Assembly: GCF_002252565.1 (NCBI RefSeq)
Contig: NZ_NPML01000027.1
Location: forward strand, 62,001-126,000
DNA length: 64,000 bases
Direction: 5' to 3'
Source of the DNA: Petroclostridium xylanilyticum
Lineage (GTDB): Bacteria; Bacillota; Clostridia; SK-Y3
In this document: in pieces, positions 3,053 through 64,000 of the stretch
Numbering within the stretch: the stretch's first letter is position 1
Layout of the letters: the number at the start of each line of letters is the position of its first letter
Notes under the pieces: generated by a model
Databases searched by the model: none
What the model was told of the DNA's origin: nothing
Seen by the model: the letters and a program-made list of their open reading frames with translations, nothing else
Position numbers and translations under genes: made by a program

Positions 3053-3063
3053 AAAAGGTAGAT

Positions 3064-3100
3064 GAGCAGGTTGGCTTCAATTGAAACCGGCCTGCTCGTT
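3064..3100 (+). terminator. Rho-independent-type terminator after tail genes
   Basis: GAGCAGG and CCTGCTC form a stem extended by four pairs (two G-U) around a 12-base loop, 12 bases after the tail gene stop. The T-tract is weak (GTTAAATT). Confidence 0.55.
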
Positions 3101-3144
3101 AAATTGAAATTTGCTGCTTATGAAATCAACACATCAATAAATGG

Positions 3145-3816
3145 TCAGTCCTTCGTCCACTCAAAGTTTTCCTTGCCTGCACCGATTTCAAAGTGATATT
3201 TGACAATGCCGAGGTCAACTTTTGAGTAAAAGCCGCCGGTGGATTCCGCCTTTACCTTATTACCGGAAAGAGTTATAAGGAATTTTTGCTGGTTCATTGC
3301 AGTGGGGGCAAGCATTGCCGCTTCCATGCCGGAGCGGAACCAATCGGGCATAGTCCCGTTCACTTTGCAAAGGGATTCTATCGGTTTGCTTTTGTGCGGA
3401 ACGCCTTGGTTCTCGCCATATCCAACCGCAAGAACACAGACGAGTTTCTCGCCTTTATTAATCTTCGCACCGCATTTGCCTTTGCTGAAGGTTAGGGCTA
3501 CCCAACAGGTGTTTAGTCCGAGTTGTTGTGCTTTCAGTGCGATACGTTCGCCGTAGTAGCCGATTTTTTCATCAAGGTCAGGGCGTTTCTTTCCGATGAG
3601 CGCAATATAGTTTTTAACACCGCTGAAATTCCCATAGTGTGCCATAAAGCCGCCAAAGGCCTGCGGTTCATCGGTTACCAGCTGGATATTGAGGCCGCTT
3701 TCGGCATTGCGGGCGGAAATTTCGGCTTGCAGCGCTGAAAGGACTTCTCCCTCAATTTTTTTGTCGGTATACCTTCTCACCGAATGGCGGTTTTTTATCA
3801 TTGTAAGAATGTCCAT
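3145..3816 (-). CDS. Nitroreductase family protein (TM1586-like)
   Basis: A 223-residue flavin-dependent nitroreductase-fold protein. The start is ATG 3816, preceded on the minus strand by AGGAGGAGT at good spacing; the longer frame to 3855 lacks such a site. It opens with the family hallmark NRHSVRRYTDKKI, which in relatives contacts FMN, and carries the C-terminal AAMLAPTAMNQQ segment typical of the two-lobed TM1586/PF14512 type. It probably reduces nitro or quinone compounds with NAD(P)H in the cytoplasm. It follows the ArsR-type regulator by about 30 bases on the same strand, so the two form an operon and the regulator probably controls it. Confidence 0.8.
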   Translation of the reverse strand: MDILTMIKNRHSVRRYTDKKIEGEVLSALQAEISARNAESGLNIQLVTDEPQAFGGFMAHYGNFSGVKNYIALIGKKRPDLDEKIGYYGERIALKAQQLGLNTCWVALTFSKGKCGAKINKGEKLVCVLAVGYGENQGVPHKSKPIESLCKVNGTMPDWFRSGMEAAMLAPTAMNQQKFLITLSGNKVKAESTGGFYSKVDLGIVKYHFEIGAGKENFEWTKD

Positions 3817-3847
3817 GGTTACTCCTCCTAAATTTTTGATTACTGTA

Positions 3848-4242
3848 TTATGCATTCCCGCTTCTGTCTGGGGCAGCGGTTACCAGAGCACGAATGCGTC
3901 CAAAAAGAGCTTCAATTTTGCTCAGTTCAGATATGTTGTAGTCAAGGTAATAGTAGTTGCGGGTGTGCCTTCACGGCGCATTCGTATGATTCCTGCATCC
4001 ATTAGAATTTTGATGTGGTGCGATACTGCCGGACGGGACAGATTTGTCTTTGCGGTAATCTCACCCACACGGACGCCGTCGCATTCACTTTCAAGCAGAG
4101 CAGTGATAATGTGCAGTCTTGTTTCGTCACCGAGGGCAATGAAAGCTTTTCGGCAGGCTTTAAATTCTTCCGACAGGCTGCGCATATTTTGTTTGCATTG
4201 TTCGCGCTGTTCGCAGTTTGAGCAGTCTCTGGCTTCTTTCAT
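3848..4242 (-). pseudogene. ArsR-family transcriptional regulator, frameshifted near the C-terminus
   Basis: The first 95 or so residues are a winged-helix ArsR repressor (ALGDETRLHIITALL; LSRPAVSHHIKIL recognition helix). A Cys cluster (CSNCEQREQC, residues 7-16) could bind a metal or thiol. The frame as read ends at 3922 with an unnatural Thr-rich tail. One frame over, the sequence continues as GTRNYYYLDYNISEL and then to TAA at 3848-3850, which is exactly the family's wing and dimer helix. The break is at ACACCCGC near 3961 (two bases removed or one added restores the frame). The stop of the restored gene sits 31 bases before the nitroreductase start. It is a sequencing error or a recently broken gene. 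Confidence 0.75.
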
Positions 4243-5390: not shown

Positions 5391-6371
5391 ATGATTACAT
5401 TGGCACAGGCAAAATTAAACACACAGGATGATATACAGGCAGGAGTTATTGATGAATTCAGGAAGAGTTCATTCATACTGGACAACATACCCTTTGATGA
5501 CGCTGTTACCCCTGGGACAAACGGCGCAACACTTACATACGGGTACACAAGGCTGATCACACAGCCGACAGCGGCTTTCAGGGCCATCAACAGCGAATAT
5601 ACCCCGCAGGAAGTTGAAAAGCAGAGGTATACGGTTGAGTTAAAGCCCTTCGGAGGCTCCTTCCAGATTGACAGGATTATTGCCAGCACAGGAGGACTGG
5701 TGGATGAAGTAAACCTTCAGGTTCAGCAGAAGGTGAAGGCGGCAAGGGCGTTATTCCATGATACCATCATCAATGGCGATTCTGCTGTGGATGCCAATTC
5801 CTTTGATGGGCTCAATAAAGCAATCACAGGTTCAAGTACAGAATTTAACGCAGGAGCATATATAGACCTGTCCAGTTCATCGGCAGTGGATACCAACTAT
5901 AAGCAGTTCCTTGACCTGCTGGATGAATTCCTCTCCAATCTTGATGAAAAGCCTACCTTCCTTGGAGGGAATTCAAAACTCATCACTAAAATCAAAGCAG
6001 TAGCAAGAAGAGCAGGATACTTCACTCAGAGCGAGGATGCATTCGGCAGGAAGGTAGATGCCTATGACGGAATTGTACTGGTTGACCTTGGAGCAAAAGC
6101 AGGAAGCAATGACCCTGTAGTCTCTATCGTTAATACAAGGAAACCAAATGGCACTGATGTAGTGACAGGTCTTACCGACCTTTATGCAGCAAGGTTAGCC
6201 TTGGATGGATTCCATGCCGTATCCCTCGCAAATCAGGACTTGGTGAAGATATGGCTTCCCGACTTTTCTACAGCCGGAGCCGTAAAGAACGGAGAAGTGG
6301 AAATGGTGGCGGCTGTTGCATTAAAAGCTACCAAGGCGGCAGGAGTATTCAGGAACATTAAAGTAGCATGA
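5391..6371 (+). CDS. Phage major capsid protein
   Basis: A 326-residue protein of the HK97-fold capsid type, opening MITLAQAKLNTQDDIQAG and containing the characteristic FGGSFQIDRII segment (residues about 84-94) and a C-terminal RLALDGFHAVS strand. It assembles the icosahedral head. It has a clear ribosome site (AAAGGAGATTG) and is followed within 15 bases by the next head gene. With no portal, scaffold or protease gene adjacent, it cannot form infectious heads alone, so this is a relic module with an intact open frame. Confidence 0.8.
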   Translation: MITLAQAKLNTQDDIQAGVIDEFRKSSFILDNIPFDDAVTPGTNGATLTYGYTRLITQPTAAFRAINSEYTPQEVEKQRYTVELKPFGGSFQIDRIIASTGGLVDEVNLQVQQKVKAARALFHDTIINGDSAVDANSFDGLNKAITGSSTEFNAGAYIDLSSSSAVDTNYKQFLDLLDEFLSNLDEKPTFLGGNSKLITKIKAVARRAGYFTQSEDAFGRKVDAYDGIVLVDLGAKAGSNDPVVSIVNTRKPNGTDVVTGLTDLYAARLALDGFHAVSLANQDLVKIWLPDFSTAGAVKNGEVEMVAAVALKATKAAGVFRNIKVA

Positions 6372-6385
6372 CGGAGGTATTGGCT

Positions 6386-6700
6386 ATGGCAAGGATATAT
6401 TCGAAAAATAAGCAATACAACGGTATATCCGCCGGCGTAAACTTTGTAAACGGGGTAGGGGTTACTGATGACCCTTACCTTGTTTCCTGGTTTATGGAGA
6501 ATGGCTATACCGTAGAAGAGAAAAAAGAAATAAAAAATTATGAAAACATGACCTATAAGGAATTGACCGATTATGCAAAAGAGCGTGGGTTTAACGGAAT
6601 CGGGTATAAAAAGGAACAGCTAATTCAGGCATTATATGATTTGGACAAAAAAGTAGGTCGTGTTTGCGCAGAAGATAAAATAAGGGAAACGGAGGGGTAG
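6386..6700 (+). CDS. Small phage head protein with Rho-N/SAP-like domain
   Basis: A 104-residue protein. ATG 6386 is preferred over 6368 because GGAGG at 6373-6377 is 8 bases upstream. The C-terminal half (MTYKELTDYAKERGFNGIG, then KKEQLIQALYDLDK) looks like the two-helix Rho N-terminal/LEM-like fold seen in many phage proteins located right after the capsid gene. The N-terminus (GVGVTDDPYLVSWFMENGY) resembles small capsid-decoration-associated proteins. Function is unproved. Confidence 0.6.
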   Translation: MARIYSKNKQYNGISAGVNFVNGVGVTDDPYLVSWFMENGYTVEEKKEIKNYENMTYKELTDYAKERGFNGIGYKKEQLIQALYDLDKKVGRVCAEDKIRETEG

Positions 6701-44722: not shown

Positions 44723-45703
44723 ATGGCGCAAAGACATACGCCCTTCGGCTATAAAATCATAGACGGAGCCGTAGCCATCGAACCGGAAAAAGCAGACCTG
44801 ATCAGGAAAATGTTCAATGATTTTATATCGGGAATATCTTTAAACCAGATGGCAAAGGCCCTAACGGAAATGAAGGTTCTCAATGCCAACGGAAAACCCT
44901 CCTGGAATCACGGTTCCATCGGAAAAATCTTGAGCAACTGTAAATACACCGGAAGCGACTTCTATCCTGCCATTATCCCGGAGGAAGTATTCAATGCTGC
45001 TAATAGGCTCAGGGAAGAAAAGAACGCCCGGCTTGGCAGAAATGTCAATTACTTTGCCAACGGCATCTCCAGTGCTTATCCCTTCAGCGGCAGGTTGATA
45101 TGCGGGGAATGCGGGAGTATTTTCAAAAGGTACACCGAACATCATGACAGGAACAAGAAATGCAACTGGAAATGCAAACGGTATATCGTTGACAACAGAG
45201 TATGCTGCAAAAGCGGTGTGGTTGATGATAAGCAGCTTAAAGCAGGCTTTATACAAATTATCAACCGGGTAATGGAGAGTCCTGAAATGATAGAAAAGCG
45301 TCCAGCAGTTAATGCTGTGACTGAGAGTGTTGAATTAAGAAAGATAAAAATGCAAATATCCAGCGGACTCGGTCAAAACGGCCTGAAACCGTCGGAGATG
45401 GCACAGCTGCTATTCAAAAGGGCTGTAGAACAATATCGAATCTCCCAGGTGGATGACTTTGAATATAAAACCAGGAAATTGAAAGCGGTGCTTGAGAGCT
45501 TCAAGCCCATTAAAGCATTTGATGAGGCTTTATTCAAAGCAACCATCAAAAGCATTACGGTAGAAAGCACCGGGCAGCTCCGGTTTGAACTAATCAATGG
45601 AGTGGTGCTGGGCACACCATATAAACTACGGGGAAAAGGAGGAAAAACCCATGGCGATGGGACAAAGAACAGTATCGGTAATTCCGGCAAATCCGATTTA
45701 TGA
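44723..45703 (+). CDS. Recombinase 2: DNA-binding part only, no catalytic domain
   Basis: 326 residues starting directly in the recombinase domain (TPFGYKIIDGAVAIEPEKAD), then zinc ribbon (CGECGSIFKRY ... CKRYIV) and C-terminal coiled coil. The resolvase domain with the nucleophilic Ser is absent, yet the gene has a proper start and ribosome site (GGAGAGGAAG), so this looks like a designed partner, as in other clostridial multi-recombinase cassettes, not a truncation. It may bind att sites and steer the other two recombinases. Confidence 0.8.
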   Translation: MAQRHTPFGYKIIDGAVAIEPEKADLIRKMFNDFISGISLNQMAKALTEMKVLNANGKPSWNHGSIGKILSNCKYTGSDFYPAIIPEEVFNAANRLREEKNARLGRNVNYFANGISSAYPFSGRLICGECGSIFKRYTEHHDRNKKCNWKCKRYIVDNRVCCKSGVVDDKQLKAGFIQIINRVMESPEMIEKRPAVNAVTESVELRKIKMQISSGLGQNGLKPSEMAQLLFKRAVEQYRISQVDDFEYKTRKLKAVLESFKPIKAFDEALFKATIKSITVESTGQLRFELINGVVLGTPYKLRGKGGKTHGDGTKNSIGNSGKSDL

Positions 45704-45869
45704 TTTCAAGGAAAAAGCAAAGATAAAAAAGCTGAGAGTGGCTGCCTACTGCCGGGTCAGTACGGAGCTGGAGGAACAGCAGTCCAGCTACCAGGCACAG
45801 GTGGATTATTACACGATGGAAATTATGAAAAACCCAGGCTGGAAGTTTGCAGGCATCTATGCCGATGAG
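45651..45869 (+). CDS. Large serine recombinase 3, exon 1 (before group II intron)
   Basis: ATG 45651 (AAAAGGAGG upstream), overlapping the end of recombinase 2 by 53 bases. 73 codons contain the catalytic Ser in AAYCRVSTEL and end at FAGIYADE. The gene then runs into the intron at GTGCG. Joining to 48274 restores YADEGISGT exactly in frame. Confidence 0.85.
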
Positions 45870-46396
45870 GTGCGCCCAGACTAGGGCTTTGTTTAAAGTA
45901 GAATTTATGGAACTACACTGCAAGATAACGCAGTAGTCAACCTATCTTACTGCAAGGGGAAACCCGATACAGGAACATAGCATGATAGGAAAGCGACAAG
46001 TTGGCTTAGGACAAAAGCCACGACTTATGTTGCAATGACAAGTGGATATGAGGATAAGATTGTATTTATCGAATGTGAGGTCTAAGCTGCCATTGCGTAG
46101 GGTCTAAGGAAATGTCCTGATACCTTAGCTGTAACATCTATATGTACCTTCGTCGCATATAGAGTTATCAATAAATTACAGAGCAGGCACGAGAACGTGT
46201 TATAACAGACTGAAAGCATATCCGACAATCCACATTTCCAAGAAACAAAGCTAAACTGGGGATTACCTAAGCAAGTTTCACTTGTATGGTAACAGAGTTT
46301 CCATAGTAGTCCGAGATGAGTAAGGCTCATTACATGGCGAAGGGAAACAGTTAATAAATTTCAAAATTAGAAAGTTGAAAGGCAGGAGAATCCTGA

Positions 46397-48172
46397 ATGA
46401 AACCAACAGCTGAAATTTTGGAGCGTATCAATAAAAATTCAAATGAGCACAAAGATGGAGTATATACTCGCTTATACCGTTATCTTTTAAGGGAAGATAT
46501 TTATTACAGTGCATACCAAAAATTATATTCCAATAAAGGAGCATCAACTGAAGGTATTGATAATGATACTGCTGATGGATTTGGAAAGAAATATGTAGAA
46601 AGTTCAATAGAAGAATTAAGCAATAATACTTATAAACCCAAGCCGGTACGCAGAGAATATATCAAGAAATCCAATGGGAAAATGCGACCTTTAGGAATAC
46701 CGTCATTTAGAGATAAGCTATTACAAGAAGTTATGCGTAGATTTTTAGAAGCTATTTATGAACCGATTTTTAGTGATTTTTCACATGGATTTAGACCTAA
46801 TAGAAGTTGTCACACTGCATTAAAGCAGACACTTCCATATTTCAAAGGTGCAAGATGGTTTATAGAAGGAGATATAAAAGGCTGTTTTGATAATATTGAC
46901 CATGATAAGCTTATTGAAATATTACAAAGAAAAATTAAAGACAGTAAGTTTATAAACATTATTCGTAGTTTTCTAAAGGCAGGATATATAGAGGATTTCA
47001 GATATAACCAAACATATTCTGGAACACCTCAAGGAGGGATTTTATCCCCAATACTTGCCAATATTTATCTGAATGAATTGGATAATAAAATCATGGAGAT
47101 TAAACAAAACTTCGATAAGCCGGCAACAAGGTGTGTAAATCCAACATACGACGAGATTAGAGGGAAAAGATATTGGTTACAGCAGAAACTTAAAAATGCT
47201 ACTGATGAAGAAAAACCGGTTCTGATTTCAAGAATTAATGAATATAGTAAGAAACTTTTGAAATTACCCTATAAATCACAAACGGATAAAAATATAGCTT
47301 TTGTAAGATATGCTGATGACTTTTTAATAGCAGTAAGAGGAAATAAAGAAGATTGCATTAAAATTAAAGAACAATTAAGAGAATTTCTAAATGATGAATT
47401 AAAGCTTACCTTAAGTGATGAAAAGACTTTGATTACTCACAGTAGTGAAAAAGTTAGGTTCTTAGGATATGACATTTCAGTTAGACGTAATCAACAAATA
47501 TCAACTAATTCATTAGGACACAAGAAACGTCAGCTGAATGGCACTGTAGAATTATTAGTTCCTTTAGAGAAGATAGAAAAGTTTATGTTTGATAAAGGTA
47601 TCATTAGACAGAGCAAAGCTAAAAAGTTTCACCCGATACACAGAAAAGGATGGCTATATCTCCCAGACCAAGAAATCTTGGAAAGATACAATGCTGAAAT
47701 TCGTGGAATACTCAATTATTACCACCTAGCCAACAATTATAATAAACTTAATTATTTTCAATACTTGATGGAATATAGCTGCCTTGCAACTTTAGCAGGA
47801 AAGCATAATTCTTCAATAAGTAAAGTAATTGACAAATATAAAAGCGGCAAAGGTTGGGCAATAAAATATAAAACAGAAAAAGGTAAAACACGAGAAAAGA
47901 GAATTGTAAAACTTCAAGATTGCAAAGGGTTCTGTGATGATAATATTGTTAGACACATTTATTCTGTAAATACCAATGCTACTATTAGAGCAAGACTGCA
48001 AGCAGGAGTTTGCGAGCTTTGCGGTAGCAGGGGAAAGTCTAATTATGAGGTTCACCATGTTTCAAGTGTAAAGGGACTAGAAGGCAATAAGCTTTGGGAG
48101 CAGATAATGAAAATCAAAAATAGAAAAACATTAGTGGTATGCGAGGATTGCCATAAGGCAATACATAGTTAA
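46397..48172 (+). CDS. ltrA: Group II intron reverse transcriptase/maturase with HNH endonuclease
   Basis: 591 residues. RT blocks include GKMRPLGIPSFRDKLLQEV, FSHGFRPNRSCHTAL, IKGCFDNIDH, GTPQGGILSPILANIYL and the catalytic YADD (about 305-308). A thumb/maturase (domain X) region is around WLYLPDQEILERYNAEIRGI. The C-terminus has a zinc HNH endonuclease: CELCG, VHHVSSVKGL and CEDCHKAIH. All activities for splicing and retrohoming appear intact. Ribosome site GGCAGGAG. Confidence 0.92.
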   Translation: MKPTAEILERINKNSNEHKDGVYTRLYRYLLREDIYYSAYQKLYSNKGASTEGIDNDTADGFGKKYVESSIEELSNNTYKPKPVRREYIKKSNGKMRPLGIPSFRDKLLQEVMRRFLEAIYEPIFSDFSHGFRPNRSCHTALKQTLPYFKGARWFIEGDIKGCFDNIDHDKLIEILQRKIKDSKFINIIRSFLKAGYIEDFRYNQTYSGTPQGGILSPILANIYLNELDNKIMEIKQNFDKPATRCVNPTYDEIRGKRYWLQQKLKNATDEEKPVLISRINEYSKKLLKLPYKSQTDKNIAFVRYADDFLIAVRGNKEDCIKIKEQLREFLNDELKLTLSDEKTLITHSSEKVRFLGYDISVRRNQQISTNSLGHKKRQLNGTVELLVPLEKIEKFMFDKGIIRQSKAKKFHPIHRKGWLYLPDQEILERYNAEIRGILNYYHLANNYNKLNYFQYLMEYSCLATLAGKHNSSISKVIDKYKSGKGWAIKYKTEKGKTREKRIVKLQDCKGFCDDNIVRHIYSVNTNATIRARLQAGVCELCGSRGKSNYEVHHVSSVKGLEGNKLWEQIMKIKNRKTLVVCEDCHKAIHS

Positions 48173-48208
48173 TTTGAATTTTAAAATGATATGGTAATTA
48201 TTAACGGA

Positions 48209-48242
48209 GAGCCGTATACGTCGAGAGGTGTACGTACGGTTC
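48209..48242 (+). ncRNA. Group II intron domain V
   Basis: GAGCCGTATACG ... CGTACGGTTC forms the 34-base catalytic hairpin with the AGC triad and a GAGA-type loop. A short domain VI follows before the 3' splice site at 48273/48274. Confidence 0.85.
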
Positions 48243-48273
48243 GGTGGCGAGGGATTTTGTGCCCTTAGCCTAT

Positions 48274-49689
48274 GGCATATCCGGTACCAGCACAAAAAAC
48301 AGGACAGGATTCAATAAATTGATTGAAGACTGCATGGCAGGCAAGATTGACCTGGTGCTGACAAAATCCATCAGCCGTTTTGCACGAAACACCCTTGACT
48401 GCATTCAATACATACGGAAACTGAAAGAAAAAAACATCGGCGTGTTCTTCGAAAAAGAAAATGTCAACACCCTGGACAGTACCGGAGAATTTCTCATCAC
48501 CATCCTCGGAAGCCTCGCCCAGGAAGAAAGCCGATCCTTAAGCACCAACACAAGGTGGGGCGTGGTCCGCCGGTTCGAAAAAGGACAGGTTATGGTCAAT
48601 CATAATAAGTTTTTAGGTTATACAAAGAATGAGGCCGGTGAATTGGTGATAGTGCCGGAGGAAGCAGAAATAGTAAGGCTGATTTTCAGGCTGTATTTAG
48701 AGGGTCTAAGCATTACCCAAATCAAAAAGTACCTAGAGGAAAACGGCATTAAAACCGTTACCGGAAAGAACCAATGGTCTACTACTACCATCAACAACAT
48801 GCTCTCCAACGAGAAGTATATGGGAGATGCCTTGCTGCAAAAAAGCTACACCGTAGACTACCTCACAAAGAAAAGAGTTAAAAACAATGGAATTGTCCCA
48901 CAATATTATGTGGAGGACAGCCATCCGGCCATAATTTCCAAAGACTTGTTTCACCGGATACAGGAAGAAAAAGCACGCCGGGCTAACATTAAAAAGACAG
49001 CAGAAAAAAGAGCCAAAACCGACAGCGGGAAATACAGCTCAATATATGCTCTCACCGAATTGTTGACATGCGGGGAGTGCGGCAAGCCTTACAGACGGGT
49101 TTCCTGGACTGCCTACAGCGAGAAAAGGATTGTGTGGCGGTGCTTAAACAGGCTGGAGTACGGGAAAAAACACTGCCAAAAGTCCCCGACCATCGACGAA
49201 GAAGTTTTACATAGGGCCATTATGGATGCTTTCAATTCGCTCATACAGGACAAAGAAGATTTTGTGGACACTCTCCAGTCTAATATTCAGCTGGTAATGA
49301 GCAACCGGGCGAAACGGATGGACATAGCAAAAATTGAGGAAAGGATCGCGGAATTAAAAAAAGAGATGATAGGCTTCGTAGAGGAAAATGCAAGATGTGG
49401 AGCAGATAATACAGACTTTGACGAGCACTATGCCAAAATCTCTGCCGAGCTGAAAGAGCTTCAGGAGATAAAAACACAGTATACCGAGCAGCAAGCCAGG
49501 CAAGACAGCTTCCAGCGAAGAATCGAGGATATGAAGAAGTTTCTGAACACCGCAGACTGCAAATTATCTGGATTTGACAACCAGCTTGTCAGGCAGCTTA
49601 TACAAAGCATTAAGGTCGTTTCAAAGGACAAGATTCTCATAAAATTCAAGTCGGGTTTGGAGATGGAGCAGGAGCTTGCTAAAAAATAG
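48274..49689 (+). CDS. Large serine recombinase 3, exon 2
   Basis: Continues as GISGTSTKNRTGFN, SISRFARNTLDC, the recombinase domain, zinc ribbon (TCGECGKPYRR ... WRCLNR) and a coiled coil ending KSGLEMEQELAKK. The GTG at 48244 lies in intron sequence and is not the real start. With exon 1 the spliced product is about 544 residues, a normal full-length enzyme. Confidence 0.85.
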   Translation, partial: GISGTSTKNRTGFNKLIEDCMAGKIDLVLTKSISRFARNTLDCIQYIRKLKEKNIGVFFEKENVNTLDSTGEFLITILGSLAQEESRSLSTNTRWGVVRRFEKGQVMVNHNKFLGYTKNEAGELVIVPEEAEIVRLIFRLYLEGLSITQIKKYLEENGIKTVTGKNQWSTTTINNMLSNEKYMGDALLQKSYTVDYLTKKRVKNNGIVPQYYVEDSHPAIISKDLFHRIQEEKARRANIKKTAEKRAKTDSGKYSSIYALTELLTCGECGKPYRRVSWTAYSEKRIVWRCLNRLEYGKKHCQKSPTIDEEVLHRAIMDAFNSLIQDKEDFVDTLQSNIQLVMSNRAKRMDIAKIEERIAELKKEMIGFVEENARCGADNTDFDEHYAKISAELKELQEIKTQYTEQQARQDSFQRRIEDMKKFLNTADCKLSGFDNQLVRQLIQSIKVVSKDKILIKFKSGLEMEQELAKK

Positions 49690-50049: not shown

Positions 50050-50136
50050 ATATATCAAAGGCAAACTTGTCGAAAGGCAGGGACGCAAAGCCAAGGGCCT
50101 ATGGAGCAGCATAATTCTATGGCAGCCGGCTGCATT
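50050..50136 (+). promoter_or_regulatory. Cyclic di-GMP-I (GEMM-I) riboswitch
   Basis: The conserved core is present: GGCAAAC (50060-50066), a short GNRA-type hairpin loop CGAAAG, GGGACGCAAAGCC (50080-50092), then GGGCCT and the second-helix arm ending in GGCAGCCGGCTGC. It precedes a terminator and the chemoreceptor gene. A TATAAT-like element sits at 49996-50001. Confidence 0.85.
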
Positions 50137-50172
50137 GGAGCCTCTTTGCAACTGGTGCACAGGGGCTTTTTG
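50137..50172 (+). terminator. Riboswitch expression-platform terminator
   Basis: AGCCTCTTTGCA pairs with TGCACAGGGGCT (few mismatches), followed by TTTTTG. It is placed right after the aptamer P1 side, as expected for transcriptional control. Confidence 0.75.
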
Positions 50173-50340: not shown

Positions 50341-52079
<1,739 letters not shown>

Positions 52080-56593: not shown

Positions 56594-58132
56594 TCACAGG
56601 TGGTTAATCAAAGCACTCTCGTAATTTTTTAGCTGTCTTAAAACATGTTTTTTATCCTGTTTTTCTTTTGATAAAGTATTAGTAATGTTTTCCATGTAAC
56701 TCCAAAAAGCAGATGTCATATTGCTTTCATTTAAGCCGAAGAATACCTGAGGGAATTCATATTTAGCAACAATTACTCCTGTTTCTTCTTTAACATAAAT
56801 CATTAAATGTTCCGTTGTTTTTTTATCTTGAATAAACACATTATAGTTATTATAAGTTTCCATGAGATTTATTATGTTTTGAAGGTGCAGCAGGTATTCT
56901 TGGGAAGAGTAAAAAAGCTCACCGGTATAAAACATTAACGGTATGGGGGTTTTTCCGGCAAAAACATTGTCTAATTCTGGAAGATATATTATTTCAGTAA
57001 ATTTATTTGTTTCAAGGTTTCTTTTGAAGACTTCTATCCTTCTTTTTATATAAAGGGTAATAGTATTATCGTTATAATGGGGAGTCTTAGCTAAAATCTT
57101 CGATACCAAATCCGGAGGCATAGTGATGCTTGAAAATCCGTTAGATTTAAGGATGCTGTTGCAATGTTGATTTTCAAATTCCGACAGGGCTTTAAGGAAA
57201 ATTTTCTGTTTATCCGGGGTGAAAGCATGTATAAGAGGCCGGCAGAGGTCAAGATAACGGCAAAATTCATCTTGGAGAGGCAAGAGTATTGCTTTTTCAG
57301 TGGACAGGTAGGTAATGGCATTTTCGCTGCCATCACCAAACGAATTCGAAAAGACAGCAGCGCAATCAGGCGACAAAAACAGGGTACGCTTAAATAAGCC
57401 GTCCCTATGTTTCGGATAAAAATAAGATTCAATAGCACTGCTCATATATAATGGCAGCCATTGGATGATGGCAGAAAGCATTTCATCAAGGGAGCGGCTA
57501 ACCGTATGAATGATTTTAATTTTATTGCCTTTGGCAATAACCTGATCCATAAGCTGCATCCATTCTGCGGCAAATTCCCGGTTTTCCGTAAGCCATATCA
57601 TATCCTCTTCGCTGTGTAAAAACAGGAAAGAGGGATTTTTTTTGGAAAGAACAAGGTGAAGAAATTTTCTGACAGCATCCCGTTTGCCTTGATTGCCAAA
57701 GAATACATTAGTATTGATATTTAAGCCTTCGTCAAGTTTTTTTATAATGGGCTGATTTTCGGAATAGTTATTATCTGATGCAAATGACAACCTGGAATGA
57801 GAGTTTTTCGATTTATTTCTTTCAGCCCATTCTTTTTCGTTGTCATGCAGCCAGTCATAAAGAAATTCAGCAAGCCCGCTTTCAGTGGCAGGCAGTGTCG
57901 ATTTTTTGATTCGGGCGGCTTGGATGATAGCAGCCAACTGGTAATCTTCAGTAATGTTTCTAGCAAAATATTTAGCAAACAAACCAATATAGTTTTCTTT
58001 TCTTGCAGGGAGCCTGGCTCCGCTCCTTAAACGGCTGATAAACGAATTGTCAAGTCTTGCTATATGAGCTAACCGGCTATTGGTTGTATTAGTCAATTTC
58101 AGTAAAAAATCAAGTTTTTCATTAAAATGCAT
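56594..58132 (-). CDS. Large HTH-domain regulator of the 58-64 kb locus
   Basis: 512 residues. An XRE-like helix-turn-helix lies at the N-terminus (TTNSRLAHIARLDNSFISRL), followed by about 430 residues of no family I recognise, containing FLFLHSEEDMIWLTENREF and IIHTVSRSLDEMLSAIIQWL. The large domain may sense a ligand or an envelope signal. It is divergent from the gene at 58276, with palindromes in the 140-base gap, so it probably controls that operon. Confidence 0.65.
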   Translation of the reverse strand: MHFNEKLDFLLKLTNTTNSRLAHIARLDNSFISRLRSGARLPARKENYIGLFAKYFARNITEDYQLAAIIQAARIKKSTLPATESGLAEFLYDWLHDNEKEWAERNKSKNSHSRLSFASDNNYSENQPIIKKLDEGLNINTNVFFGNQGKRDAVRKFLHLVLSKKNPSFLFLHSEEDMIWLTENREFAAEWMQLMDQVIAKGNKIKIIHTVSRSLDEMLSAIIQWLPLYMSSAIESYFYPKHRDGLFKRTLFLSPDCAAVFSNSFGDGSENAITYLSTEKAILLPLQDEFCRYLDLCRPLIHAFTPDKQKIFLKALSEFENQHCNSILKSNGFSSITMPPDLVSKILAKTPHYNDNTITLYIKRRIEVFKRNLETNKFTEIIYLPELDNVFAGKTPIPLMFYTGELFYSSQEYLLHLQNIINLMETYNNYNVFIQDKKTTEHLMIYVKEETGVIVAKYEFPQVFFGLNESNMTSAFWSYMENITNTLSKEKQDKKHVLRQLKNYESALINHL

Positions 58133-58184
58133 TTTTAAATCACCTCATAAACAGTATAGATTATTATGAATTGTCAATCAATGA

Positions 58185-58263
58185 TTTTGGCAGAAAATAT
58201 GCCAAAAATGGCAATGCCAAAAAGTGTTGTGTTATACAACAAACAACTGCAAAAAGGTATAAT
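58185..58263 (+). promoter_or_regulatory. Divergent operator region with three palindromes
   Basis: TTTTGGCA/TGCCAAAA (58185-58192/58200-58207), TGGCA-A-TGCCA (58209-58219) and TGTTGT-GTTAT-ACAACA (58225-58241), followed by TATAAT at 58258-58263. These are likely binding sites for the divergent HTH protein. Confidence 0.6.
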
Positions 58264-58275
58264 TTAATAGAGGTG

Positions 58276-58575
58276 ATGAAGGTGGTATGGAGAGTGGGGA
58301 TGAAAACAGGCATTTTCCAAATGCAGGAATATTTATTGACTGTTGACAAGAAAGGAATAATACTAAGTTCCCAAGAAGAAGGCAATAAAAAATTAAAGTT
58401 TGCGGATCGTCAAATAAAATCAATTACCATAATAAAGAAAAATGTTGGCGTTTATGAATTGGAAATGGAAACAGAGTTGGGAATTTACAGCGGAGTATTG
58501 GCAAAGACGGCAGATGTCAGCGAAATATTTAAAGCTTTATCCGAAACTTTCGGCAGCAAAGTGTGTATAATCTGA
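58276..58575 (+). CDS. Small PH-like cytoplasmic protein
   Basis: About 99 residues from ATG 58276 (GAGGTG just before; ATG 58300 is an alternative). Predicted all-beta with a C-terminal helix (GIFQMQEYLLTVDKKGIILS, LKFADRQIKSITIIKK, EIFKALSETFGSKV), the pattern of a minimal bacterial pleckstrin-homology-like domain. First gene of the divergent operon. Function unknown. Confidence 0.55.
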   Translation: MKVVWRVGMKTGIFQMQEYLLTVDKKGIILSSQEEGNKKLKFADRQIKSITIIKKNVGVYELEMETELGIYSGVLAKTADVSEIFKALSETFGSKVCII

Positions 58576-58596
58576 ATCGAAAGGAGAGTGGGTTAA

Positions 58597-59214
58597 TTGC
58601 CGGTTAAAAGTATAGGAGTTGGTTATTCAGAAAAAATCAATGCCCCGGAATTTAAAAAATATATAAAAAACACAAACAAATGGTCTTTTATCTTCGCATT
58701 AATAATTGCGGCGACAGCTATTGTCGGTTTTTTCATCTATGGGGAGATAAGTACGGAGATGGATAATCCGCAAGCCTTATTTATAGGCCTTGGGATAGGC
58801 GGTATGTTTATTGCTATTGCGATATTTCAAATTATCGGCAGAAAAGGAAGCAAAACGTGGGACGGTGAAGTGGTTGACAAGAAGGCGGAAAAGAAAAGGC
58901 GAAAACGCCCTGTTACCTCTTATATAGATGAAGACGGCGGAAGGCATGAAGATTACGTCTGGGAAGAATATATTTTGTATGCTGTCTTTATCCGTGACGA
59001 GAATGGTAAAATTCACACAATAAGAACCGAAGATGACGATACAGTTTATAACTATTACAGAATTGGAGACAGGGTTCGACATCATGGTGGGCTGAATTCG
59101 TATGAAAAATACGACAAATCGAATGACAGCATCATATTTTGCAACGCTTGCGCTACTCTTTGCGATATCAATGATGATATATGCTACCGTTGCAAATGCC
59201 CCCTTTTAAAATAG
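58597..59214 (+). CDS. Membrane protein with C-terminal zinc ribbon
   Basis: 205 residues, TTG start behind AAAGGAGAG. Two membrane helices (about 28-50 and 60-80), then a basic stretch (KKAEKKRRKRP), a beta domain and a C-terminal four-cysteine zinc ribbon (CNACATLCDINDDICYRCKC). The ribbon and the soluble domain should be cytoplasmic. No family recognised beyond this layout. Confidence 0.6.
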   Translation: MPVKSIGVGYSEKINAPEFKKYIKNTNKWSFIFALIIAATAIVGFFIYGEISTEMDNPQALFIGLGIGGMFIAIAIFQIIGRKGSKTWDGEVVDKKAEKKRRKRPVTSYIDEDGGRHEDYVWEEYILYAVFIRDENGKIHTIRTEDDDTVYNYYRIGDRVRHHGGLNSYEKYDKSNDSIIFCNACATLCDINDDICYRCKCPLLK

Positions 59215-59254
59215 GCGCTTATATTTAACCTCGATAAAAAAAGAAGGTAAAGAA

Positions 59255-59818
59255 ATGGATGGAGAAAAGAATAAGCAATTACTAATCCAATGGCGTGCAA
59301 GTATGCCTATCTTTAAAAATACTGTTATTTTAAAGCAACTGGCTTTGGCGATAGGGCTTCCCTTTGGCCTCTTGAGTATGTTCTTCGTAATTATGTCTTC
59401 AAAAAGTCAGGGGGCTTTATATGGTTTGGTTATGATTGGCATTTTGTTATTTTTAACCTGGCTTTTTATTATTATTGTCTATCAGGGGAAATACGAAGTT
59501 GAGTTCAGGCTTGACAAACAAGGAGTTCTTTGCCGTACCCAGACCGGACAGATGAAAAAGAACCGTGTTATTAATCTGCTGACAGTTGTTTTAGGCTTGC
59601 TGTCAGGCAAACCAGCCGCGGCGGGCGCCGGCATACTGGCCCAGTCCAGAAAGGAGGTCTTTATCAGGTGGAACCGCATCAAAAAAGTAGAATACAATCT
59701 TCAAAACCGCACGATCCTGCTGCGGGGCGGATTTGGGGAAAATGTTGCTTTGTTCTGTCCGGAGGAGAGCTATTTGCAGATAGAGCGGGCGGTTAGAGAA
59801 AAGACCAGACAAATATAA
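59255..59818 (+). CDS. Two-helix membrane protein with PH-like domain
   Basis: 187 residues, AGAAGGTAAAGAA site. Two adjacent membrane helices (about 28-45 and 52-74) followed by a beta-rich domain (KYEVEFRLDKQGVLCRTQTG, VFIRWNRIKKVEYN) resembling bacterial PH/YdbT-like modules, with a hydrophobic Ala/Gly loop in the middle. Probably part of a membrane complex with its neighbours. Confidence 0.55.
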   Translation: MDGEKNKQLLIQWRASMPIFKNTVILKQLALAIGLPFGLLSMFFVIMSSKSQGALYGLVMIGILLFLTWLFIIIVYQGKYEVEFRLDKQGVLCRTQTGQMKKNRVINLLTVVLGLLSGKPAAAGAGILAQSRKEVFIRWNRIKKVEYNLQNRTILLRGGFGENVALFCPEESYLQIERAVREKTRQI

Positions 59819-59871
59819 AGCGGCAAACAGGAAAGATTGTTTGTTTTGTCTGGGAAAAAGGAGGTTTTCCT

Positions 59872-60204
59872 ATGAAGCGCAGTCCTTTTGCCCGCATCCT
59901 GCTTTCCCTGCTGGGAGTGATCTTACTTTTGTATAATACCGGCGCGCCTTTGCTTGGTTTAATCGGAGAACGGGACACGGCCCTCATCACAAGCATAAGA
60001 TGCCAGGGAGGGGAGCGGAATGAAGCGGTAAGGGGAAGGTAAACATATTCTATCGGATATGTTTTCACTCTCCCGGACGGAAGGGAAGTATCCGGCACTT
60101 CAACTTTTATCGGAAATGCAATTTATGTAAAAGCTGCGGGATATTCATTATTATTGTCGTCAATAAAAAACGGAGAGAAAGCCCAAGCAAATAATTGCTG
60201 TTGA
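59872..60204 (+). pseudogene. DUF3592-like membrane protein with an internal stop
   Basis: Good site AAAGGAGG and ATG 59872. An N-terminal membrane helix (ILLSLLGVILLLYNTGAPLL) and then a beta domain: VRGR, TAA (60040-60042), TYSIGYVFTLPDGREVSG and onward to TGA 60202. The stop stands where relatives would have Tyr or a similar residue (TAA versus TAC/TAT), so a single base change broke the gene. The C-terminal end also looks shortened. Confidence 0.55.
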
Positions 60205-60222
60205 AGAGAAGGGGGTTAAAGT

Positions 60223-61209
60223 ATGCAAAAAAAGTATTGCATCCAATGCGGCGCCTTACTGGAAGCAGGAGAAAGCTTTTGCGCTTCCTGCAAGGCGGAT
60301 TTGGAACAAGAGGGAATGAATTCAGGTACATCAAAAGCCCCGGCTGCAGCACCAAAGAAATCAGGATGGGTGGTCGACCGGTTGGTGGGCAGCAACAGCG
60401 CGGCAGCGGCAATGCCAGGTGAAATGGCTTTTATCCAGCCCCTGTCTGGCATGGGCGGCCTGATTCCAGGAGCGGAGCTAGGGCCGTTTAAATGCCTGTT
60501 GAGCGGCGTGTGGGGAATTATCAAGGGCACGAGAACCGTATTCAGAGAAAAAAAACGACTGGCTTTGGTTGGGGTGATTTCTTGCGTTTGGCTGGTTCTT
60601 TTGATTTTACCGGCCCTGGGAGTTAATTCTTCAGCTTTAAACTGGCTGAACTTTCTTACGTTTGCTCAGGGAGGCGCCGGGGGTGGGGTGCCTGGTCTGG
60701 TCGGAGGTCTTATAGGCAAAGGTTTTCTGGCTTATTTTTTTACAGTCTTACTGCTTCCCGTTTTTAATAGAGAAAAGCCTTTAGATGGTATAGGGAGCGG
60801 CTTTAAAAGACTAATCGGTTCTTTGGCCGTAAAGGACAAATCAACTCTCCCGCCGTTGTTTGGGGGAGCTGGGATAGCTCTCGTCTGCTACAATTTCCTG
60901 ACGGTCGATAACTCATTGCAAAACAGTATGGCAGGTATTGCAGCTTGTTTTCTGGCTTTAAGGGCTTTAGCAAGTAAGGCCGGGTTTTTAAGGAGGTTTC
61001 TCTTTTCCCTCTTTATTAAGCCCGGCAAAGGGCGAATGCCTGATACTTCAGCTATTACCCGGTTTATGGCCGGTTGGGCCGCAGGGTTTGCCCTGGGCAT
61101 ACCGCTTTCTCTAACCGGAATTAGCAGAATCGGCTATTTGGCGGGCCTTGTTTTAATTATTGCCGCTGCTGCCCTGAAACTTGTGTCCGGCAGAGCAAAG
61201 GAGGTGTAG
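60223..61209 (+). CDS. Zinc-ribbon polytopic membrane protein
   Basis: 328 residues. The N-terminal zinc ribbon (CIQCGALLEAGESFCASC, residues 6-23) is followed by an Ala-rich linker and about five to six membrane helices (for example LVGVISCVWLVLLILPALGV). The ribbon-membrane layout matches the gene at 58597 with the domain order reversed. It ends 5 bases before the secreted protein gene, so the two are probably co-translated. Confidence 0.6.
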   Translation: MQKKYCIQCGALLEAGESFCASCKADLEQEGMNSGTSKAPAAAPKKSGWVVDRLVGSNSAAAAMPGEMAFIQPLSGMGGLIPGAELGPFKCLLSGVWGIIKGTRTVFREKKRLALVGVISCVWLVLLILPALGVNSSALNWLNFLTFAQGGAGGGVPGLVGGLIGKGFLAYFFTVLLLPVFNREKPLDGIGSGFKRLIGSLAVKDKSTLPPLFGGAGIALVCYNFLTVDNSLQNSMAGIAACFLALRALASKAGFLRRFLFSLFIKPGKGRMPDTSAITRFMAGWAAGFALGIPLSLTGISRIGYLAGLVLIIAAAALKLVSGRAKEV

Positions 61210-61214
61210 GCGGG

Positions 61215-64000
61215 ATGATGAAAAAGATTTTGGCGGCTGCCGCTCTGGCCTTATTGTTTGTGTTGAACTTATCTCCAGTTGTTCTTGGGGAGGAACTGCA
61301 GGACATTTATGAAGCTTACGGTCTAAAAAAGGGCGATGACGAACTTTTTGGCCTGTTTTACCGCAACCCGCCGGAAGTGATTGCTTTACGGCCCTTCAAA
61401 GTGAGATGGTATGATATCGAAATGCCTATCAATGTTGGGACCCTTGTCCTAGAGAAAGGCAAGGATGCTAAATTCAGTTTTGCGGTAAAAGGTGAAAAGA
61501 CTGAGGGGAGTACTAAGGTGACTGTAGAAATTGTATCCGATATTACCTTTCGTTATGCCCAGAATGAGGATCCAAGGATACTATTTGAACTAGACCATAA
61601 TACCCATCTGAAAAGCTATACGGATGGCAAACTGATAAGGGACGAAACATCCAACAAAACAGGCAACGCTGGGGGATGGGGAGGACAGGACGAGGGAGTC
61701 CTCAATATTGGTATGTTTTTACCAAAGAACAGCGGCGCCGGGAATTTGGGCGTAGTGTTATTCAGAGTGGAAGGCGTCCAGGTCAAAAAAGGCGGTCTGG
61801 GCATCCTGGAAATAGATACCCAGGCCAGTACTACTGCAGGAGAAACTGAACAGGCGCTGCCTGCGGCCATTGTGCTTGGGGTGGCCGGCGCTGCTGCGGC
61901 AGCAGTCGGTGCGGCAGCAGCCGGTGGGTCCGGCGGAGCTGCGGGAGCGTCCGGGGGGAGCAGTGGTGATGGGCCCGAGGATGATGAAGGCGGCGGCAGC
62001 TATAAGATGGTCATATATAAGGATTTTGGCGACAGCATCAGAACCGGAGCGGATGCGGTGTTTATCCAGGCCCGCATGGTGGAAATCAATGCCCAGGGAG
62101 CGGAGATAGAAAGACCTGACCTAACTCAAAAAATAGAGATTTTCTCCCCGGACAATGTGCTGCAGGTGGGGATTCCGTCTTTTACCGGGACTGCCGTGCA
62201 GACTTCGCTCAAAGCCATGCATCCGTCGCCGCAGACAGCCAAGGTCAGTTTCCGCTTTGCCGGCGAGGGCGGAGTGTTTCAAAACAATGTAGAATTCAAG
62301 ATTATCGGGGAAAGCAAGATCAAGCTGGCTTCAAGCATATTTCCCATCCTGGCCGCGTCTGCGGAGAGCTTTGAGCTGGAATACGAGCTGGTGGATTTTC
62401 TCATGAAGCCGGAAGTTTCGCTTCAATACAATAAGGCCGTCGGCCTTTTCGAGCTGGAGCTTGGCAAAAACAAGCTCGGCAAGGATGTAATTGTAGCCAG
62501 GCCGACGGAAAAGGCCGGAAAAATGAGTTTCCAGCGGTTTATTCACCGCTATGCGTGTGAAATCACAGCCAAAAATGATAAGGAAACGGCCAAAGAAAAA
62601 TTTGAGCTGCACCTGTGCTATGAGGGAATAGGGACAGCCTTTGACCAGGTGAAGAACAACACCACTCCGGATGAAATAATCCTGGAATGCTTTGCCGATA
62701 GTGAAAAAGAAAAGCGGGAAGAAAAGGCATACCGATTGCCCCTGGCTGTGATGCGCTGGAATAATGCCGCGAAGAGGCTGGAACCCGATACCGCCGCGGC
62801 AGAAAAACTGAAACTGGAATTTACCGCCGACACCAAATCCAAAAATCTGCCTGCGGCAGAAGCGGTAAGAGCGGTGGAGGAAGCGGAGATTGCCGCCAAG
62901 CTGGAGACGGGGCCCAGTCCGGTGAAGATAGACCATGAAAAGAAGCCGGCGCTTTATATGCTTTTCCCGGAGAAATGCGCGGTGGCCCAGGCTCCGGAAA
63001 TAGAAATCATTATAACTGTCTCCATGGAGGATGCGGAGTTTGAGGAATTAATCCTAAAAGGCAGGCTGAAGCCCCAGAATGATTACAAGGCCATGATCGA
63101 GTGGTTTATCAACTATGGCAAGGGTACCTTTGTCCATGATTATATCAAAATAGGCGATGTGAGCATTTACCACGGGGCGCTGGACTTTATTGAGAACCGG
63201 GTCTATTCCGCCAGCACCTGTCCCTATACCCCAAAATCAAAAGAAAACCATTACGAGGACGGGAAGATGGATGTATCTCGTCCCAACTATATATATCTGC
63301 AGGATGCCTCTATGCCCCATAAAATTGGAGAATTCAAGCAAATCCAATCCCTGCACCATGAACTGTGCCATGCCATTGAACACCAGCATGGCGATACCGG
63401 AAGCAGTGAAAACTCAGAAAGACACTCTTACTTCATCCAACATCTCACTGATGTGGTCAAGGCACTGGCAGACATGGAGCGGGGCATGGAGGACGCTGCT
63501 TCGGCCGCCGAGAATGCCATCATGGCCTTTTATGAAGTGTTCAATGATACGCATAATGCAGAACCCCAGACTTTTGATTGGTTTGGCGTTACCTATCTGA
63601 CCCAGCATAAAATATTTGAGCGTTATGCCGATTTTGATGTATACTGCAGAACTAACATACCCGAGGAGAGAAAGCAGGAAATTGCGCGTGTATTTAGAAC
63701 CCGGTATTTTCCAGGTAATCTGAAGGGCAAGAGAAACTATGGAGCCAGTTTCAAAGAAAAGTCGGGTGCTTTCCAGAATGCGGTCTGGAACATCAAATGC
63801 AGCACCACATACATAGGGCTGGTTAAAGGCGTTTCAGTTGAGCACCCAGATTATAAATTCAGAGTTAGAAAGGTACCCCAATGGGTTCCCGGAACGTTGA
63901 AAATTGTAGCAATGTATGATGTAGAAAACATAGCCACCGGAAAGACGGACACTTTGATGGTGGAGCTGGACGGCGGCAGCTTTGATCCAAGCGATTACCG
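61215..64000 (+). CDS. Very large exported protein with HELCH motif, 3' end outside window
   Basis: 928 codons are visible without a stop. ATG 61215 (GGCGGG site) begins a clear signal peptide (KKILAAAALALLFVLNLSPV, cleavage near VLG-EE). Residues about 217-250 are an Ala/Gly-rich hydrophobic stretch followed by an acidic Gly/Ser linker, possibly a membrane segment. Several beta-sandwich-like regions follow, then HHELCHAIEHQHGD (HELCH at 715-719), the HExxH zinc-protease pattern, with acidic residues further on (ERYADFDVYC). It may be a secreted metallopeptidase or an Ig-like surface protein; no family is certain. Confidence 0.6.
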   Translation, partial: MMKKILAAAALALLFVLNLSPVVLGEELQDIYEAYGLKKGDDELFGLFYRNPPEVIALRPFKVRWYDIEMPINVGTLVLEKGKDAKFSFAVKGEKTEGSTKVTVEIVSDITFRYAQNEDPRILFELDHNTHLKSYTDGKLIRDETSNKTGNAGGWGGQDEGVLNIGMFLPKNSGAGNLGVVLFRVEGVQVKKGGLGILEIDTQASTTAGETEQALPAAIVLGVAGAAAAAVGAAAAGGSGGAAGASGGSSGDGPEDDEGGGSYKMVIYKDFGDSIRTGADAVFIQARMVEINAQGAEIERPDLTQKIEIFSPDNVLQVGIPSFTGTAVQTSLKAMHPSPQTAKVSFRFAGEGGVFQNNVEFKIIGESKIKLASSIFPILAASAESFELEYELVDFLMKPEVSLQYNKAVGLFELELGKNKLGKDVIVARPTEKAGKMSFQRFIHRYACEITAKNDKETAKEKFELHLCYEGIGTAFDQVKNNTTPDEIILECFADSEKEKREEKAYRLPLAVMRWNNAAKRLEPDTAAAEKLKLEFTADTKSKNLPAAEAVRAVEEAEIAAKLETGPSPVKIDHEKKPALYMLFPEKCAVAQAPEIEIIITVSMEDAEFEELILKGRLKPQNDYKAMIEWFINYGKGTFVHDYIKIGDVSIYHGALDFIENRVYSASTCPYTPKSKENHYEDGKMDVSRPNYIYLQDASMPHKIGEFKQIQSLHHELCHAIEHQHGDTGSSENSERHSYFIQHLTDVVKALADMERGMEDAASAAENAIMAFYEVFNDTHNAEPQTFDWFGVTYLTQHKIFERYADFDVYCRTNIPEERKQEIARVFRTRYFPGNLKGKRNYGASFKEKSGAFQNAVWNIKCSTTYIGLVKGVSVEHPDYKFRVRKVPQWVPGTLKIVAMYDVENIATGKTDTLMVELDGGSFDPSDY

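Follow-up and report, generated by a model that had tools for sequence, protein, structure and literature searches.

The subject of this analysis is an operon of Petroclostridium xylanilyticum that ends in genes for a radical S-adenosylmethionine (SAM)/SPASM enzyme, a protein with a conserved N-terminal tag and a 327-residue protein. The window, i.e., the whole stretch of 64,000 nucleotides that was analysed, corresponds to G000:C27:62001-126000, and the coordinates below are window positions unless stated otherwise. Beyond the window, positions refer to locus L003, in which L003:1 equals window position 62000. A co-directional run of genes on the plus strand begins at about 58.3 kb and reaches the window end. 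The following features were assigned, most of those in the window as open reading frames (ORFs):

56594-58132, minus strand: divergent 512-residue regulator with a helix-turn-helix-like N-terminus (judged by eye)
58276-58575, plus strand: 99-residue small soluble protein, no family, without hydrophobic segment, start maybe at 58300
58597-59214, plus strand: 205-residue protein with two hydrophobic segments and a C-terminal zinc-ribbon-like CNAC/CYRC
59255-59818, plus strand: 187-residue protein with two hydrophobic segments
59872-60206, plus strand: DUF3592-like gene, broken by an in-frame TAA
60223-61209, plus strand: ZR328, a 328-residue polytopic membrane protein with an N-terminal CIQC...CASC (CxxC...CxxC) ribbon
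61215-64000, continuing 106 bases past the window end, plus strand: P0001, 963 residues
63357-63371, plus strand: HELCH (HExxH) of P0001, residues 715-719 (H715, E716, H719), with a downstream Glu at E735
L003:2121-2981, plus strand: membrane protein MP286, wholly beyond the window
L003:~2972-4048, plus strand: radical SAM/SPASM enzyme, overlapping the end of MP286
L003:4058-5491, plus strand: FV477, the tagged 477-residue protein, which begins MKIRSDFVTNSSSTSF / MKIRSDFVTNSSSTSFGAASVTGFVTAVISALGISSAMAAS
L003:~5493-6434, plus strand: X327, a 327-residue protein and the last gene of the operon

P0001 ends at C27:126106 (would-be window position 64106), 35 residues beyond the window, and only 14 bases separate it from MP286. 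Downstream of X327 an integrase is encoded on the opposite strand. The plus-strand run in the window is the front half of a longer operon ending in the enzyme, the tagged protein and X327. At the start position of its homologues the enzyme of this genome has no ATG, GTG or TTG, and its start codon is likely ATT or CTG. The closest relatives of the cassette, L059 and L092, with an enzyme identity of 69% and 65%, respectively, share the succession MP286, enzyme, tagged protein and X327 with the window operon.

An earlier reading of the window, made from the sequence only, had recognized a compact operon. Its genes are indeed co-directional, but the operon does not end at P0001, as four more genes follow; the extension past 64 kb that this reading had recommended brought the end of P0001 as well as MP286, the enzyme, FV477 and X327 to light. 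The regulator was correctly described as divergent from the plus-strand run, and the two small membrane proteins (two hydrophobic segments each, one ending CNAC...CYRC) and the zinc-ribbon polytopic protein were likewise found as described. For the label "PH-like" of the 99-residue protein neither Pfam nor NCBIfam offered family support. The DUF3592-like gene resembles L015 (49% across 51 residues) but is not intact as it stands, since codon 57 is a TAA (60040-60042) that reflects decay or a sequencing error. Moreover, P0001 has a signal-peptide-like start and the HELCH motif as claimed, whereas the attribute "giant" has to be reduced to merely large. The 187-residue protein shows weak similarity to TcpE in Pfam (18.1 bits, below the cut-off of 29.9), and no protein of the window reached a cut-off in Pfam, NCBIfam or PADLOC. 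The gene set can still be called undescribed and in part exported or membrane-bound, as proposed. The defining genes of the system, however, are not those for zinc-ribbon membrane proteins but those for the enzyme and the tagged protein beyond the window.

The tag comprises about 18 residues with the consensus MK[IVFY][RK]x[DG][FY]V[TS]NSSS[ST]S[FY] (short form MKIRxDFVTNSSS). Altogether, 314 tagged proteins with a length of 73-811 residues (median 139; shorter ones were left out of the count) fell into 68 unrelated body clusters, and conservation drops to the background level at residue 19. By these comparisons the tag is a module placed ahead of unrelated bodies. As the search pattern fixed residues 1, 2, 4 and 7-10 of the tag, only the other positions count as free evidence: among the 68 bodies I3 was found in 44, D6 in 54, S/T14 in 59, S15 in 58 and F/Y16 in 65, and positions 11-13 were Ser in all 68, although the pattern allowed other residues. 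A Shine-Dalgarno-like sequence lies upstream of 285 of 345 tagged starts compared to 40 of 345 control sites, and this enrichment indicates that the tag is the true N-terminus. Pfam searches with the 68 bodies yielded isolated LRR and BRCT domains and one weak match, and the same searches with 120 neighboring genes showed no dominant family and so no functional theme.

The co-occurrence of tag and enzyme was computed in both directions. A DNA pattern for MKxRxxFVTN followed by three codons permitting Ser was found in three of 391 genomes of the class, and an enzyme with more than 50% identity was present in exactly these three; G000 and G067 had suggested the motif, so that only G043 is independent. 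Starting from the enzyme, five of the 391 panel genomes were found to encode it, each with a tagged gene beside it. The more distant enzymes of G142 (MKIKADFVTNSSSTSF) and G293 (MKVRLDYVTNSSSVSY) are adjoined by tags that escaped the strict pattern only through K for R or Y for F. Starting from the motif, at least 119 genomic stretches with the tag were obtained; among the matches listed the enzyme is present in 99 of 119, with tag and enzyme at most 600 bases apart in 88 (median distance 385 bases) and on the same strand in 97 of these 99. Nineteen genomes had no enzyme in the listed tag stretch, but 13 of them encode one elsewhere, which suggests that the enzyme acts in trans on tagged proteins encoded at other sites. 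Four alphaproteobacterial plasmids that were found through the enzyme alone have MK[IL]KxDFVSNSSSTSF just upstream of it, and in viral loci found by the enzyme a tag was nearby in 71 of 80 cases, compared to one of 80 in a control with backwards-read DNA.

Matches to tag and enzyme span Bacillota, Bacteroidota, Actinomycetota, Acidobacteriota, Verrucomicrobiota, Synergistota, Chloroflexota and Myxococcota and include one archaeon, Methanoculleus (L034); many of the related loci are metagenome bins. Neither Pfam nor NCBIfam contains a model that describes the tag/enzyme system, and no description was found in the open-access literature, which leaves a description in a subscription journal possible. 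Large phage contigs (L143-L222, L235-L314) carry two to eight different tagged genes in arrays, in many cases accompanied by a single enzyme, and the neighbors of these arrays include genes for a tail sheath, NrdD, DNA polymerase and a PurZ-like protein. Within the named phages of INPHARED no enzyme was detected at E<=1e-20. On plasmids of Agrobacterium, Rhodobacter and Rhizobium (L019-L022) an enzyme with the canonical motif and a gene of the FVSNSSSTSF type are located directly 3' of SMEK-domain genes, which are known as parts of ABC three-component conflict systems.

The structural model of the enzyme (mean predicted local distance difference test score, pLDDT, 95.5) contains a radical SAM barrel. 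The closest solved fold, and also the best sequence match in the PDB, is the streptide cyclase SuiB (5V1Q/5V1S/5V1T; Z 26.0 over 314 residues, 3.2 A), which shares the barrel and the SPASM cysteines with the enzyme. The enzyme profile matches SuiB, SkfB, PqqE and the anaerobic sulfatase-maturating enzyme (anSME). The Pfam model Radical_SAM was above the cut-off for the enzymes of G043 and Agrobacterium, and SPASM scored 28.4 bits (cut-off 21.5) with the enzyme of the window genome; the conserved cysteines of the auxiliary clusters are C255, C275, C293, C330-X2-C333-X5-C339-X3-C343 and C352. The best NCBIfam scores were those of TIGR04317 (W_rSAM_matur) and the mycofactocin maturase TIGR03962, but with 52 of 380 and 74 of 265 bits, far under the cut-offs, membership in either family was rejected. 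A phage copy of the enzyme is matched by PHROG family phrog_7293 (E 6.5e-23), a phage family listed without function or tagged partners.

The enzyme differs from SuiB in several respects: identity is about 18%, about 45 residues precede the barrel, and in the main clade (clade A) the cluster motif is CX7CX6C instead of CX3CX2C. This motif is present in 81 of 82 scored enzymes of clade A with all three cysteines conserved, while the other bacterial, the alphaproteobacterial and some phage clades with the same tag have the canonical CX3CX2C and a few phage enzymes show further variants. These N-terminal residues are probably too few for a full RiPP recognition element (RRE; RiPP: ribosomally synthesized and post-translationally modified peptide), yet the first residues of the model align near the start of SuiB. 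In the phage branch L290-L314, CX3CX2C enzymes go with MKIK tags, whereas the CX7CX6C clade has MKxR tags; a co-variation of the enzyme motif with position 4 of the tag is possible.

SuiB likewise works on a ribosomal precursor, but on a short peptide, whereas the putative substrate here would be an entire protein that carries the tag at its N-terminus. Also RiPP maturases of the SPASM type are SkfB and the sactipeptide synthases (5WGG/5WHY; Z 20-23 to the enzyme model). Their thioether chemistry requires a Cys in the substrate, but the tag, unlike their substrates, has none. A SPASM enzyme which modifies a residue of a full-length protein is anSME (Z 21 to the enzyme model), the motif of which is internal in sulfatases, in contrast to the N-terminal tag. 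Leader-dependent RiPPs also have a conserved N-terminal sequence on a gene beside the enzyme, a role that the tag may share; their precursors are short with a small hypervariable core, however, and the tagged proteins with their long and unrelated bodies differ from them.

An uncharged hydrophobic stretch directly behind the tag was found at nine loci only and is absent in 325 of 334 tagged proteins. Several of these stretches end in sites resembling those of signal peptidase I (SAMA/AS, SAYA/AS) or a lipobox (ILGSC/D, LASC/N). Eight of the nine loci contain an MP286-type gene, the ninth has one in a longer stretch from its genome (L231), and the remaining tagged loci, which have no hydrophobic segment, contain none. 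The nine enzymes of this secreted branch form one group in a quick tree (SH-aLRT support 98). L048 was assigned to the branch by eye on account of its protein with tag and lipobox, and the tree does not include L049, the enzyme of which is cut. With a tag followed by a hydrophobic segment, an MP286-type gene and an enzyme within this clade, the window operon falls into the secreted branch.

In P0001 residues 217-235 form a second hydrophobic segment besides the signal-peptide-like start, so that the peptidase-like half may lie on either side of the membrane. HExxH and the Glu of the third ligand are invariant in five homologues (H265, E266, H269 and E285 in alignment numbering), and by sequence the arrangement is typical of zinc peptidases, the type to which the C-terminal half would belong. 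The model of this half (pLDDT 74.8) had no Foldseek match at E<=0.001; a fold comparison restricted to the Ig-like part (18-171) retrieved common Ig/chaperone-like sandwiches with Z<=6.2. A match of the large protein to a known single-protein family, which the sequence-only reading had named as its own refutation, was not found in Pfam, NCBIfam or a PDB profile search, the latter without any convincing match, and a search in plasmids gave no match either. Homologues occur in few genomes. In G067 the C-terminal half is part of a 717-residue protein that starts MKIRKGFVTNSSSTNF and directly follows a membrane protein and the same type of radical SAM enzyme as in the window operon. Fusions of the tag to this half occur in three genomes (G067, G394 and G395), the other two loci being L046 (Clostridium caldaquaticum) and L049 (Fusibacter tunisiensis), and they tie P0001 to the tag/enzyme system. 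The conserved neighborhood expected by the earlier reading recurs in part: P0001-like genes stand beside zinc-ribbon and DUF3592-type genes in the enzyme-less genomes G122 and G381 (in G122 a homologue of ZR328 with 41% identity lies immediately 5' of the P0001-like gene), and at least seven genomes besides that of the window have the order MP286, radical SAM enzyme and FVTNSSS protein. Two modules, zinc-ribbon/P0001 and tag/enzyme, are joined in the window operon. In G005 the gene directly 3' of the P0001-like gene (L013:2120-6019) encodes a 1299-residue protein with a zinc ribbon and, judged by eye, a lipase-like region, a different partner for the P0001 family.

From the association, the class of the enzyme and the conservation of the motif, we infer that a dedicated radical SAM/SPASM enzyme modifies the N-terminal tag and that the window operon is a member of the secreted branch, a reading which we regard as probable. 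The enzyme would recognize the tag of about 18 residues before the protein leaves the cytosol and would modify it, most likely within the strictly conserved F-V-T-N-S-S-S, and a single enzyme could act on several tagged proteins, also on those with genes at other sites of the genome. Sec would then export the protein in the secreted branch, with MP286 as a helper or receiver. P0001 probably represents a further cargo or takes part in processing the tagged protein, because it is encoded in the same operon and its peptidase-like half is tagged in other genomes. Sequences and structural models, the only kinds of evidence used, show the gene order, the motif, its association with the enzyme from either starting point, the fold class and the coherence of the secreted branch; the modified site, the action in trans, the export topology and the roles of P0001 and MP286 are proposals built on them. 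A wider interpretation, to which we give slightly less than an even chance, sees an unrecognized cross-domain tagging in which a portable, near-invariant box of 18 residues is rewritten by a dedicated CX7CX6C radical SAM enzyme; its users would range from bacteria to large phages with whole arrays of tagged proteins and would include at least one archaeon, and one branch would have adapted it to export, a peptidase-like protein being among the exported ones.

Several observations weigh against a modification of the tag or against parts of this scheme. The association of tag and enzyme alone is no proof of modification. The textbook radical SAM spacing CX3CX2C is missing from clade A; non-canonical Cys spacing is known for other members of the superfamily, and the unusual motif does not exclude membership by fold. 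The position of the general base D277 in anSME, the catalytic Asp beside a cluster cysteine in anSMEcpe, is occupied by an invariant Ser (S294), so that the chemistry cannot be transferred from anSME or other known enzymes. Six of the 19 re-searched genomes, often incomplete bins, showed no enzyme. P0001-like genes are also present in the enzyme-less genomes G005, G122 and G381 and are missing from L059 and L092, the nearest relatives of the cassette, and P0001 is for these reasons not an obligate part of the system. The regulator, of which no homologue was detected in related loci, and the small membrane genes are tied to the system by position only.

In an alternative explanation, which follows the classical leader-dependent RiPPs, the tag would be a leader for recognition only, and the residues changed by the enzyme would lie in the body. 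The N-terminal position of the tag fits, and so do the nearest solved relatives, SuiB, SkfB and the sactipeptide synthases, in the substrates of which the modified core follows a leader. Beyond about position 18, however, no residue is conserved across the 68 unrelated bodies, a few of which are known domains (LRR, BRCT), and the conservation from F7 to S13 exceeds the usual need of a leader (though the pattern fixed several of these positions); we consider this explanation unlikely, if not negligible. Oxidation of a tag serine to formylglycine would be a special case of the modification favored here and is suggested by the serine run and by anSME being among the nearest relatives in sequence and fold, but with S294, which is not an acid, in place of Asp277 its probability is very slight.

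The tag could also stay unmodified and serve as a sorting or assembly signal, with the enzyme acting on something else and the genes merely traveling together. Its position ahead of a signal-peptide-like segment in the secreted branch and the phage arrays of up to eight tagged genes, as for assembly parts, agree with such a signal. It is nevertheless very unlikely in our view, as in nearly all tagged proteins no hydrophobic segment follows the tag, both sequence and fold place the enzyme in the peptide-modifying SPASM group, and the pairing is kept in unrelated hosts and phages. Closer to the sequence-only reading is a stand-alone envelope, secretion or immune operon of zinc-ribbon proteins and P0001, to which the radical SAM cassette is just adjacent. 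The ZR328 and DUF3592-type genes beside P0001-like genes in G122 and G381 speak for it; the 14-base and overlapping junctions from P0001 over MP286 to the enzyme and the tagged P0001 half directly after the enzyme in three genomes speak against it, and it seems distinctly improbable. The immune system among these proposals is unsupported because no PADLOC defence model matched; the weak matches obtained there are probably coiled-coil noise.

Further upstream in the window, a gene of the methyl-accepting chemotaxis type (50341-52079) consists of two overlapping ORFs with an apparent frameshift and is preceded by a c-di-GMP-I riboswitch (50050-50137). Serine-recombinase-like ORFs (44723-49689) lie on both sides of a group II intron reverse transcriptase (46397-48172), and Rfam matches an intron at 48207-48273; a recombinase gene was apparently the site of insertion.

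If the modification of the tag is true, hundreds of "hypothetical" proteins from gut and sediment bacteria and large phages would share a single N-terminal mark made by the enzyme, and their common start, without any other likeness among them, would be accounted for. The radical SAM/SPASM enzymes would gain a class of full-protein substrates and an unusual cluster motif, and the orphan operon of P. xylanilyticum would gain a mechanism, the modification of a tag before export.

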